Assembly: GCF_003226535.1 (NCBI RefSeq)
Contig: NZ_QKOB01000009.1
Location: 1 to 64,000 of the forward strand
Source: Meiothermus sp. Pnk-1
Lineage (GTDB): Bacteria > Deinococcota > Deinococci > Deinococcales > Thermaceae
Direction of reading: 5' to 3'
DNA length: 64,000 bases
A program made the translations under genes and the position numbers. Positions 1-50,897 of the stretch are shown in pieces. Within the stretch, counting starts at the first letter, position 1. Every line of letters begins with the position of its first letter. Below the pieces are notes generated by a model. That model was not told the DNA's origin. It did no database searches and was given only the letters and a program-made list of their open reading frames with translations.

Positions 1-190
1 CCCCCGCGTTTAGCGTCTGGCGTTTTGCGTATTGCGTAAGACGTACAACGTACGACGTATGACCTAAGTCGCGTTTAGCGTCTGGCGTTTTGCGTATTGC
101 GTACGACGTATACCAACCCCACCCCAGCCCTCCCCTGCTAGGGGGGGAGCACCCCACGTTCAGCGTCTGGCGTTTTGCGTACAACGTGAG
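1..190. repeat. Composite intergenic repeat: 7-bp-period arrays around a C-rich core
   Basis: Stretches at 6-62, 71-112 and 157-188 are built of degenerate 7-mers, first GCGTnTn units (GCGTTTA, GCGTCTG, GCGTTTT, GCGTATT) and then RCGTAyG units. Between the second and third arrays, 113-156 carries a C-rich core with a TCCCCTGCTAGGGGG inverted repeat. The same core and arrays recur in reverse orientation at about 35357-35536. The window begins with CCCCC directly before GCGTTTA, as at 1442-1448 where hairpin modules precede, so more of this element may lie upstream. No long ORF is supported here. Confidence 0.85.
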
Positions 191-1261: not shown

Positions 1262-1445
1262 CTTATTTGTGCTGACTCAGACGTCGTACGTCGAACGTCA
1301 TACGAAGGGGATCGGTCCCTCGGGTGTACGGGCGTAGCCCGTCCCGACAGGGGATCGTCCCCTAGGTGTACGAGCTTTGCTCGTCCCGACAGGGAATCTA
1401 CCTCTAGGTGCACGGAGCTTGCTCCGTCCCGAAGGGAATCTACCC
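1262..1445 (+). repeat. Tandem hairpin modules with covarying stems
   Basis: After a short 7-mer-like stretch (1278-1304) there are three modules of about 42-45 bp. Each holds a GGGATCGTCCCC-like segment and then a hairpin followed by CCCGA. The hairpins are ACGGGC-GTA-GCCCGT (1328-1342), ACGAGC-TTT-GCTCGT (1370-1384) and ACGGAGC-TT-GCTCCGT (1412-1427). The stems differ in sequence but each is fully paired, so structure is kept while bases change. This lies in the 373-bp gap between ruvB and the HD gene, where no gene is supported. Confidence 0.8.
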
Positions 1446-1552
1446 CCGCGTTTAGCATAAGACGTACGACGTAGGACGCAAGTCGCGTTTAGCGTATAGC
1501 GTACGACGTATGACCTAAGTCGCGTCTGGCGTTTTGCGTATAGCGTACAATG
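1446..1552 (+). repeat. 7-bp-period array
   Basis: GCGTTTA-type and ACGTACG-type 7-mers run directly on from the hairpin modules. They include the linker TGACCTAAGTCGCGT, which is also present at about 60-75. The HD gene ends at 1567, so the repeat fills the intergenic space. Confidence 0.8.
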
Positions 1553-22056: not shown

Positions 22057-22560
22057 TCAGCGGTTAGGGTCGCCGTAGGGGAAGATGGGGTCGCAGTGGG
22101 GGTCGCTGCTGGGGGTGATGGCGTTGTCGGCCCTTACGAAGGCGCTGCCCTCGGTTCCGTTGAACCCGCGCACCCACAGCCGGTGAGCGACCGGAGTCAC
22201 CACGATGGTCTGGGCTTCCACCCCGAGGCGCTGGATCTGCCCGTCGCCGTCGGTATCGGCGGCGATGTAGGAGACGATGTTGTTGTTGCCCAGATCGAAA
22301 AACTGCACGTCGCCTAAGTATTTGGCCTCGGGGTCATCGGTGGGAGTCTTCAGGTTGGGGTCATCCTTGGTGACGTAGACCTCGAGCCGGGTCAAAAGCC
22401 CGCTCTTGTTGAAGCGGAAGTCAATCAGGGTATCGCGGTTGGTGCAGAATGTCGCTTGGCTTTGAAGGTTGCTGATGACCGGAGGAACCAGCTTGACCTC
22501 AACCACCCCACAGCTCGCCAGCAGCGCGCCCACAATGGGAAGCAAGAAGGCTTTTTTCAT
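22057..22560 (-). CDS. Small lipoprotein, function unknown
   Basis: A 167-residue secreted lipoprotein: basic N-terminus MKK, hydrophobic h-region and a lipobox LLASC with the lipidated Cys near residue 17. The mature part has many Asp/Asn residues, including DTDGDG, which looks like a calcium-binding loop. No catalytic motif is visible. TAGCCT lies 7 nt before ATG 22560, so a leaderless mRNA is possible. It converges with the recJ-linked hypothetical gene with a 12-bp gap. Confidence 0.75.
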   Translation of the reverse strand: MKKAFLLPIVGALLASCGVVEVKLVPPVISNLQSQATFCTNRDTLIDFRFNKSGLLTRLEVYVTKDDPNLKTPTDDPEAKYLGDVQFFDLGNNNIVSYIAADTDGDGQIQRLGVEAQTIVVTPVAHRLWVRGFNGTEGSAFVRADNAITPSSDPHCDPIFPYGDPNR

Positions 22561-23306: not shown

Positions 23307-25925
23307 CTACTGGAGCCGGGCCAAGTTGTCGCGGATGCGCTCGAGCTGGGCCCGGTGCTCGGCCAGCCGCTCGCGTTCGGCCTCGACCACCTCGGGCTTG
23401 GCCCGCTCCACGAAGCCAGGGTTGGCCAGTTTGCGCTCGGCGCTCTCGACAGCCTTCTCCAGCTCGGCTAGGCGTTTTTTCTGGCGCTCGAGGAAGCCCG
23501 ATAGGTCCCCCTTCGGTTGCAGGTAGACGGTCACGCTGGGGGTCACCTGGGCAATGGCCTTCTCGGGGGTGCCCAGCGTGGCCTCGGCCCTGGCGAGAAA
23601 GCGGAAGAGGGCCAGGTTCTCCATGACCAACCCCGCGCCCGGGCCGTCGAGGTGGATCAAAATCTCCTGCTGGGGGGCTACGCCCAGCTCCGCGCGCAGG
23701 TTGCGGGTGGCGGTGATGGCCTCTTGCAGGGTCTCGAAGGCCCGCTCGGCCTCGAGGTCGCGCCCGCCGGGCGTGGGCCACTCTTGCAGGGCGAGTTGCT
23801 TGGGGTCGCCGGTCAATGCCTCGTATAGCTCGGAGGTGATGAAGGGCATGATGGGGTGCAGCAGCTTGAGCAGCGTGGCGAGGGTGGTCTCGAGGGCCTG
23901 CATCGTGGCCTGGTTGCCCTCGCGCAGCGCGGGTTTGGCCGCCTCGAGGTACCAGTCGCAGAACTCGCTCCAGACCAGCTCGTAGATCAGGCGGGCCGCG
24001 CGTCCCAGGTCGTAGGCCTCGTAGGCCTCGGTGATCTCGGCGATGCCCCGGTTGAGGCGGGAGGTCATCCAGCGGTCGGCCAGGGTCAGGTCTTCGCGTT
24101 TTGCGTCTTGCGTTTGGCGTATAGCGTCTTTGTTCATCAGCACGAAGCGCGCCGCGTTGTAGAGCTTGTTGGCGAAGTTGCGCCCCTGCTCGTAGCGCCG
24201 GGGGTCGTGGCGGATGTCCTGCCCGCCGGTGGCCAGGTAGTCCCAGGCGAAGCGGCAGGCGTCGGCCCCGTACTGGTCGATGAGCTCGAGGGGATCGATG
24301 CCGTTGCCCTTACTCTTGGACATCTTCTGGCCCTTGGCGTCGAGGTAGAGGCCATGCAGCACGATGGTGTGGAAGGGGGCTTGGCCGGTGAACTGGTAGC
24401 CCGACATCTGCATGCGGGCCACCCAGAAGAAGAGGATGTCGTAGCCCGTCACCAGCACGTCGGTGGGGTAGAACTTCTTCAGGTCCTCCGTATCGTCGGG
24501 CCAGCCCAGGGTGGAAAAGGGCCACAGCGCCGAGGAGAACCAGGTGTCGAACACGTCCTCGTCGCGCCTGAGCTTGAGCCCGGCGTAGCGGGGGTCTTGG
24601 TCGCAGTCGAGGTCGGGGTTTTCGGGGTCGGGCACGTAGACGTTGCCCTCCTCGTCGTACCAGGCGGGGATTTGGTGGCCCCACCAGATCTGCCGCCCGA
24701 TGGCCCAGTCGCGGATGTTCAAGAGCCAGTCGCGGTTCACCTTCTCCCAGCGCTCGGGCACCAGGCGCATCTCGCCGCGCTCGAGCCCCTCCAACACCTT
24801 CTGGGCCACCGGCTTCATGCGCACGAACCACTGCGTCAGCAGCATGGGCTCGATGGGCTCCTTGGTGCGCTCAGAGAGGGGAAGCTGCACGGTGTGGGTC
24901 TCCACGCCCTTGAGGTAGCCCTCCTCCTCGAGCCGCCGGGCCACCTTTTCGCGCGCCTCGAAGCGGTCGAGGCCGCGGAACTCCTCGGGCACCAGCTCGC
25001 CCGTCAGCTTGGCGTTCAGGTCGATGACGCTGGGCATCTCCAGGCCGTGTCGCAGGCCGATCTCGAAGTCGGTGGGGTCGTGGGCCGGGGTGATCTTGAG
25101 CGCGCCGGTGCCGAACCCGCGCTCCACGGCCTCGTCGGCGATGATCGGAATGAAACGGTCGGTGAGGGGGATGCGCACCCGACGGCCCACCAGGCCTTTA
25201 TAGCGCTCGTCCTCGGGGTGCACCGCCACCGCCACGTCGGCGAAGATGGTCTCGGGGCGCTGGGTGGCGATTTGAATTCCACCCGGCTCGTCCTCGAAGG
25301 GGTACTCGAGCACCCAGAGCTGGCTAGGGCGCTCTTCGCGCTCGACCTCGAGGTCGGAGAGCACCGTCTGCGCCACCGGGTCCCAGTTCACGATGCGCTT
25401 GCCGCGGTAGGCCAGCCCCTGGTGGTAGTACTCGATGAAGGCCCGCCGTACCGCGCGGGAGAGGCCAGGGTCCATGGTGAAGCGCTCGCGGCTCCAGTCG
25501 CAGCTCGCCCCGATGCGGCGAAGCTGATAAAGGATGGTGCCGCCGTTCTTCTCCTTGAACTCCCACACCCGCTGCAAGAACCTCTCCCGGCCCAGGTCGT
25601 GGCGGCTCTTGCCCTCCTTGGCCAGCTCGCGCTCGACCAGCACCTGGGTGGTGATGCCGGCGTGGTCGGTGCCGGGGAGGTAGAGCGCTTCGTAGCCTTG
25701 CATGCGCTTGAAGCGGATGATGGTGTCGATGAGGGTGTTGTCCAGCGCGTGCCCTAGGTGCAGGTTGCCGGTCACGTTGGGCGGGGGGATCACGATGGTG
25801 AAAGGCCCCTTGCCCTTGCCCGCGTTGAGCTCGGGCCTAAGCGGGTTTTTGGCCCACTCCTCGGCCCAGCGGGGTTCTACTGCGTGTGGATCGTAGGTTT
25901 TGGCTAGCTCTGCGTGTTCGGTCAT
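23307..25925 (-). CDS. valS: Valyl-tRNA synthetase
   Basis: Charges tRNA-Val with valine and edits mischarged threonine. The 872 residues follow the ValRS plan: HIGH motif as HLGH (56-59), CP1 editing domain with TDRF and DPTDFEIG, GYDILFFWVARM, KMSKS near 534, the anticodon-binding domain and a C-terminal coiled coil rich in E, K and R. ATG 25925 overlaps the Nudix stop as ATGA and has an AGGAGG-type site. Residues about 600-611 (IRQTQDAKRE) are encoded by a 7-bp-period repeat array and have no counterpart I can recall in Thermus ValRS. Confidence 0.97.
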   Translation of the reverse strand: MTEHAELAKTYDPHAVEPRWAEEWAKNPLRPELNAGKGKGPFTIVIPPPNVTGNLHLGHALDNTLIDTIIRFKRMQGYEALYLPGTDHAGITTQVLVERELAKEGKSRHDLGRERFLQRVWEFKEKNGGTILYQLRRIGASCDWSRERFTMDPGLSRAVRRAFIEYYHQGLAYRGKRIVNWDPVAQTVLSDLEVEREERPSQLWVLEYPFEDEPGGIQIATQRPETIFADVAVAVHPEDERYKGLVGRRVRIPLTDRFIPIIADEAVERGFGTGALKITPAHDPTDFEIGLRHGLEMPSVIDLNAKLTGELVPEEFRGLDRFEAREKVARRLEEEGYLKGVETHTVQLPLSERTKEPIEPMLLTQWFVRMKPVAQKVLEGLERGEMRLVPERWEKVNRDWLLNIRDWAIGRQIWWGHQIPAWYDEEGNVYVPDPENPDLDCDQDPRYAGLKLRRDEDVFDTWFSSALWPFSTLGWPDDTEDLKKFYPTDVLVTGYDILFFWVARMQMSGYQFTGQAPFHTIVLHGLYLDAKGQKMSKSKGNGIDPLELIDQYGADACRFAWDYLATGGQDIRHDPRRYEQGRNFANKLYNAARFVLMNKDAIRQTQDAKREDLTLADRWMTSRLNRGIAEITEAYEAYDLGRAARLIYELVWSEFCDWYLEAAKPALREGNQATMQALETTLATLLKLLHPIMPFITSELYEALTGDPKQLALQEWPTPGGRDLEAERAFETLQEAITATRNLRAELGVAPQQEILIHLDGPGAGLVMENLALFRFLARAEATLGTPEKAIAQVTPSVTVYLQPKGDLSGFLERQKKRLAELEKAVESAERKLANPGFVERAKPEVVEAERERLAEHRAQLERIRDNLARLQ
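24094..24128. repeat. 7-bp-period array inside the valS coding region
   Basis: Five consecutive 7-mers, GCGTTTT-GCGTCTT-GCGTTTG then GCGTATA-GCGTCTT (after two leading bases), match the intergenic arrays at 6-62 and 1446-1552 in period and sequence. It lies at a surface-like junction between the class I core and the anticodon-binding domain and keeps the reading frame open. Confidence 0.75.
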
Positions 25926-35356: not shown

Positions 35357-35580
35357 CGCTAAACGCGACTTGCGTCGTACGCTATACGCTGTACGCAAAA
35401 CGCTAAACGCGGGGTGCTCCCTCCCCTAGCAGGGGAGGGCTGGGGTGGGGGTGGTATACGCCCTACGTCGTACGCCATGCGCAAGACGTGACTTAGGTCC
35501 TACGTCGTACGTCGTACGCAAAACGCTAAACGCGGGGGACGGGCGGTGCCCGTACACCCGGGGGGCGATCCCCTTCGAGC
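35357..35580 (-). repeat. Composite intergenic repeat, inverted copy
   Basis: Read on the minus strand the order is: a GGGGATCG-type segment, hairpin ACGGGC-ACC-GCCCGT (35539-35553), 7-mer array (35457-35536), C-rich core with the TCCCCTGCTAGGGG inverted repeat (about 35411-35456), and a second 7-mer array (35368-35410). This is the same set of parts as at 1-190 and 1303-1552, in opposite orientation. It fills most of the 354-bp gap between the dipeptidase and the peptide transporter genes. Confidence 0.85.
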
Positions 35581-50699: not shown

Positions 50700-50746
50700 C
50701 GGGAGGCGCAAGCAGCTAATACCCTTTCATGCAGATTCCCTCACCC

Positions 50747-50897
50747 CCCGGGTGCACGGAGCTTGCTCCGTCCCGACAGAGGATCGTCCCCCGGGTGTAC
50801 GGAGCTTGCTCCGTCCCGTAGGGGATCGTCCTCAGCGTTTAGCGTCTGGCGTATTGCGTACGACGTACGACTTCGCTCGGCTACGGTCACGAAGGGG
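50747..50897 (+). repeat. Hairpin modules plus 7-bp-period array
   Basis: Two modules carry the identical 16-nt palindrome ACGGAGC-TT-GCTCCGT (50756-50771 and 50799-50814), each followed by CCCG and a GGATCGTCC segment. They run into a 7-mer array (GCGTTTA, GCGTCTG, GCGTATT, GCGTACG) at about 50832-50870 and a further CTTCG...CGAAG hairpin (about 50872-50896). Same mosaic as at 1262-1552. Confidence 0.8.

Follow-up and report, generated by a model that had tools for sequence, protein, structure and literature searches.

The window, a 64,000-nucleotide stretch of the Meiothermus sp. Pnk-1 genome (G000), carries the gene for valyl-tRNA synthetase (ValRS), and a tandem array of 7-mers of the form GCGTNTN runs through its reading frame. 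The features concerned are the following:

23307..25925, minus strand: valS, valyl-tRNA synthetase of 872 aa, closest solved structure 1GAX
24087..24134, minus strand: variable ValRS linker NKDAIRQTQDAKREDL, 16 aa, between FVLM and TLADRW
24096..24130, plus strand: in-frame array of five GCGTNTN units (GCGTTTT GCGTCTT GCGTTTG GCGTATA GCGTCTT), giving KDAIRQTQDAKR of ValRS from the opposite strand

The encoded ValRS is 94% identical to its M. silvanus orthologue. Five consecutive GCGTnTn 7-mers had been placed within this frame at 24094–24128 by a preliminary description of the sequence; our analysis confirms the array and positions it two bases away, at 24096–24130. Its units are read on the strand opposite valS, and the encoded segment K-D-A-I-R-Q-T-Q-D-A-K-R corresponds to residues 599–610 counted from the methionine. 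We shuffled valS with the protein and the codon pool held fixed, exchanging codons among synonymous positions: none of 3,000 shuffles produced five units, and the maximum, four units, was reached once. A chance array given the ValRS protein is ruled out by this result.

The same 7-mers occur elsewhere in the window, where two-unit GCGTNTNGCGTNT matches number 18 against 0.06 expected, and include these elements:

6..190, plus strand: intergenic-type arrays (6–61, 71–112 and 156–190) of GCGTNTN units grading into ACGTNNN
1281..1549, plus strand: composite of 42-bp repeat modules (TRF 1306–1447) with 7-mer arrays on its flanks
35376..35533, minus strand: 7-mer arrays of the GCGTNTN family
50745..50869, plus strand: composite in which a 7-mer array follows two 43-bp repeat modules

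Exact matches to the GCGTNTN pattern lie far above both shuffles and a reversed-pattern control, and the arrays are dispersed and mostly intergenic. We also observed a composite element of 42–43-bp modules (ACGGAGCTTGCTCCGTCCCG-like) that ends in GCGTTTAGCGTCTGGCGTTTTGCGTAT (window positions 1306–1447 and 50745–50831) and is present in tens of copies in the Pnk-1 genome; no module of this sort accompanies the valS array. The only same-genus relative of Pnk-1 in our comparison set is G001, which we take to be Meiothermus silvanus DSM 9946, now Allomeiothermus. At orthologous intergenic loci of these two genomes, some arrays are conserved and others are longer, shorter or missing; we saw no target duplication.

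To determine how the valS array is distributed, we aligned ValRS from 49 genomes and counted the three-unit pattern genome-wide in 50 Thermaceae (five carriers and 45 others). On the coding strand the array reads ATACGCCAAACGCAAGACGCAAAACGC, and this DNA, with few substitutions, is found in only five of the 49 genomes: Pnk-1, M. silvanus, G002, G006 and Thermaceae MAG015 (G019). These are exactly the five Thermaceae genomes with dispersed GCGTNTN arrays, having 136, 42, 81, 1,298 and 36 exact three-unit matches, respectively, whereas the remaining 45 have zero or one each. Both this coincidence and the identity of the array itself bear out the proposal that the valS segment is a member of the dispersed 7-mer family. 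As a separate observation, G003 (genus g3) has 35 two-mismatch three-unit matches against none in the reversed control and no exact match, possibly reflecting another 7-mer family.

In a ValRS tree calculated with the linker left out, the five carriers fall on one side of a branch (SH-aLRT 87); their nucleotide identity goes down to about 75%. Because the carriers form one ValRS clade, the capture is old rather than recent, and the simplest reading of these sequences is a single event in the carriers' common ancestor that was kept during divergence. An event of that age leaves no clean junction or empty site from which to learn how the arrays spread. The hope that junction DNA would be informative in this respect was not realized: the neighboring linkers are too variable to give a clean boundary, and we found no empty site with a clean insertion boundary at the valS linker of relatives.

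The linker between FVL[LM] and TLADR comprises 12 residues in Thermus, 16 in carriers and 11–26 in array-free Meiothermus. At the array site, T. thermophilus ValRS (1GAX) is exactly four residues shorter, a net difference of four codons, or 12 bp, in frame. The alignment thus upholds the earlier claim of a shorter Thermus linker directly before TLADRW, but the size of the difference is 12 bp and not 35 bp. The companion argument, that bases must have been gained or lost along with the array because 35 bp is not a multiple of three, is not supported, and an insertion of 35 bp accompanied by target duplication was rejected given the 12-bp difference and the lack of a clean junction. One Meiothermus genome in which arrays are absent genome-wide (G011) has a linker, NKDALRQVPEAKGQDL, of equal length and with 10 of 16 residues in common. 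Given this genome, the extra linker length may predate the array; alternatively, its linker may be a decayed array. Degenerate (two-mismatch) arrays in Meiothermus genomes occur at about the level of the reversed-pattern control, with no excess, so the decay reading is not helped, and we rejected genome-wide decayed arrays as support for an array ancestry of this linker.

We built a structure model of the window ValRS with 24 aligned sequences to locate the segment. The model predicts a helix at residues 576–605, a loop at 606–615 and a second helix at 616–637, with a mean pLDDT of 72 in the loop block and above 90 around it, and it places the array at the end of the first helix and in the loop preceding the anticodon-binding helices. 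The preliminary description had proposed checking whether the segment is a surface loop; the model gives a helix end and a lower-confidence loop. Overall, the valS array is real, old and in frame, and it lies in a tolerant loop.

Arrays of this family also enter other genes, in two cases within the frame (the names YqeY and RsmI are a reading of the protein sequences only):

G000:C1:414446-416545 (loci L188/L251): glnS, with a five-unit in-frame array in the GlnRS–YqeY linker
G001:C1:3149941-3150744 (locus L286): rsmI, with a short array that lies in frame and precedes the C-terminal part

In Pnk-1 GlnRS, the five-unit array encodes KEAERKTPDAKRKTPDARRQAPSAEGQKELPDL, a 7-residue repeat that separates GlnRS proper from the YqeY-like part at the C-terminus, and the linker contains RKTPDAKRKTPDAR. 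Its counterparts are ERKTPTAKRKTPTAERQ in G002 and EGKPQDAKRQTPSAKRQ in M. silvanus; the segment spans 39 codons in Pnk-1 and 32 in each of the other two, a difference of exactly 7 codons, which equals 21 bp or three units. Matches to Thermus GlnRS stop before the YqeY-like part. In G006, the DNA periodicity of glnS is mostly lost, and a similar R/P/A/K-rich repeat peptide is kept. The rsmI product of M. silvanus has QDAKRETQN before its C-terminal part, where Pnk-1 has HDPKHETQN, which is likely a decayed version of the array. The rsmI segment shows no length change relative to Pnk-1 or most Meiothermus, and the array could have arisen there by substitution. In-frame capture is clear for glnS and weaker for rsmI; together with valS, there are at least two clear cases.

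Such cases are exceptional. Of 40 array clusters (≤2 mismatches) in the first 1.2 Mb of the M. silvanus genome, one overlaps a gene-like frame, at the purF start, and arrays are therefore largely excluded from genes. At this locus, in Pnk-1 (G000:C1, about 22124–22194, L181) as well as M. silvanus (G001:C1:1044828–1044854), an array extends into what is presumed to be the N-terminal start region of purF; it has the other strand orientation and a hydrophobic reading, and a TTG within it could be the start codon. In addition, an acetyltransferase-like open reading frame in Pnk-1 (G000:C16, L298, about 1908–1934) seems to have its C-terminus extended by a tail of polar heptads that an array encodes, IRKTPDAKREKNAKRG.

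The unit length has a direct consequence for coding. Because 7 equals 1 modulo 3, each strand of a homogeneous heptamer array specifies a single cyclic heptapeptide, whichever of its three frames is read. On the ACGCNAN strand this peptide is the polar and mostly stop-free R-K/Q-T-P/Q-D-A-K, and on the GCGTNTN strand it is the hydrophobic A-F-x-V-L-R-L. The polar strand is used in all three in-gene cases (valS, glnS and rsmI; P = 0.125, not significant alone). As adding or losing a single unit would shift the reading frame of the gene, in-gene arrays are expected to be short and interrupted and to change by three units.

We propose, with a probability of about 0.65, that the dispersed heptameric GCGTNTN satellite entered the valS frame in the common ancestor of Allomeiothermus, genus g2 and the G019 lineage and was retained thereafter. 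A small in-frame gain, through replication slippage or a templated event, would have set array units into valS, at a site that was presumably a tolerant surface loop joining the catalytic part to the anticodon-binding helices. The resulting peptide would have been acceptable because every frame of the strand is a cyclic permutation of the polar heptad, mostly without stops. Only polar-strand captures would be expected to survive inside proteins, and subsequent in-gene length changes would be by three units (21 bp) or a multiple of this, as in glnS. Two observations sit poorly with parts of this proposal: the 12-bp difference in valS is not a multiple of 7, which argues against a simple gain of units, and the array at the purF edge lies on the other strand, against the expected strand bias. 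The valS segment most likely has no role of its own beyond that of an acceptable linker.

The 12-bp difference would fit better if length came before sequence, with an ordinary insertion of four codons in the ancestor of Meiothermus and Allomeiothermus, part of which was overwritten later by array units via gene conversion or slippage on GCNAARCGC-like codons. The array-free G011 linker of equal length is consistent with this order of events, as is an outgroup linker reading GAA GCC AAG CGC GAC, which is near GAC GCA AAA CGC GAA. Most other Meiothermus linkers differ in length, however, which leaves the ancestral length uncertain, and a decayed array is an equally good reading of the G011 linker; we consider this course of events possible but doubtful. 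At the other extreme, independent convergence by chance or codon bias in a linker rich in Lys, Ala, Gln and Arg, unrelated to the dispersed repeat, is hardly credible. Polar linkers with this make-up are common here, and similar residues occur in some array-free relatives, but convergence would have to contend with the absence of five units from all of the synonymous shuffles, the exact coincidence of carriers with array-bearing genomes and the second case in glnS.

Selection on the array as DNA or RNA, for instance as a protein-binding site, a replication-related motif or a slow stretch of rare codons between domains, would give the segment more than a linker function. In the eight core codons, from ATA to AAA, no synonymous third-base change is seen among the five carriers where the residue is kept, and a nine-codon window has 10% synonymous differences among carriers compared with 29% for same-residue codons elsewhere. 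The array codons are also rare in Pnk-1 valS, ATA occurring nowhere else in the gene and GCA twice. Yet 55 of 849 equal-sized windows (6.5%) are as low, which is not significant, so that we rejected strong synonymous constraint as suggestive only; nonsynonymous I/L, Q/R and D/E changes occur at an average rate, and the rsmI and glnS arrays have decayed in some relatives. We found no RNA structure in the valS array, which folds worse than shuffles (z = +1.37). Such selection is quite improbable. The favored reading remains capture of the dispersed satellite into a tolerant linker.

In G006, the orientation of long GCGTNTN arrays flips at the following gene and again near 2.66–2.69 Mb (L354–L383, L388–L406):

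G006, C3:753622-754917: dnaA

Among the loci listed, all 11 long arrays left of dnaA are on the plus strand, and between dnaA and 1.71 Mb on its right the minus strand carries 13 of 15 (Fisher P = 2e-5). Among the matches listed from a peptide search, the same orientation extends out to 2.66 Mb and is reversed beyond. The strand of flanking genes does not predict array strand at sampled loci, and because orientation flips at dnaA independently of gene strand, it follows replication in this genome. The G006 valS array is opposite to the bias of its arm, as expected if coding fixed its strand. In M. silvanus (dnaA at 144), no replication-orientation bias is apparent from array positions. A broader proposal, that GCGTNTN is a replication-polarized repeat that takes one orientation relative to the fork in one species and is kept at the DNA level in genes such as valS by homogenization or selection, appears unlikely to us.

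We found no description of Meiothermus heptamers in the open-access literature. The STRR heptanucleotides of heterocystous cyanobacteria are tandem heptanucleotides dispersed in the genome; GCGTNTN shares both properties and differs in unit sequence and phylum. Insertions of rickettsial palindromic elements (RPEs) are tolerated at protein surfaces. Like RPEs, GCGTNTN is a dispersed repeat that lies in frame within coding genes at linker positions (valS, glnS and, more weakly, rsmI), but RPEs are long palindromes, whereas GCGTNTN is a short direct array without a fold. RPE domains in proteins have been described (PMC2635572). Closer in kind are the heterogeneous heptamers (GGGANTN)n of Xanthomonas and GGGGA(C/T)T of Nostoc, which are dispersed, mostly intergenic, rare in genes, 2–26 units long and in many cases conserved at orthologous sites (PMC4692102); the same paper mentions tandem heptanucleotides of Calothrix. 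GCGTNTN has exactly the layout of Xanthomonas GGGANTN, with positions 1–4 and 6 fixed and 5 and 7 free, but it has no runs of three or more G and so no quadruplex, in contrast to the G-tracts of the Xanthomonas kind (PMC4692102). Lacking G-tracts, it is the same kind of repeat only, not a member of the G-rich family. That paper reports no leading- or lagging-strand preference for Xanthomonas heptamers, whereas the long G006 arrays are clearly biased and those of M. silvanus are not apparently so, and its excerpted text describes no conserved in-frame capture in essential enzymes for the Xanthomonas or Nostoc heptamers, as is present for GCGTNTN (PMC4692102). The TAACTGA direct repeats of Beggiatoaceae and cyanobacteria are intergenic and can be read through in one orientation, and, like GCGTNTN, they have cases within open reading frames that encode a heptapeptide; those are mostly in hypothetical proteins or at protein ends (PMC4679880), whereas the GCGTNTN arrays lie in interdomain linkers of housekeeping enzymes and are common to several genera.

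The valS and glnS arrays extend the kind of heptameric repeat known from Xanthomonas and Nostoc (PMC4692102) and from Beggiatoaceae (PMC4679880). The best reading is that a heptameric satellite of the same kind as GGGANTN of Xanthomonas is now and then tolerated in the linkers between domains. The replication-polar arrangement seen in G006 would be relevant to the mechanism by which heptamer arrays form. The frame and strand rule predicts strand choice inside genes and 21-bp length steps, both of which can be checked in Xanthomonas, Nostoc and Beggiatoa. In these Thermaceae, satellite DNA has turned into protein within an essential enzyme, a state common to several genera, and a simple rule accounts for why heptamers can do so.
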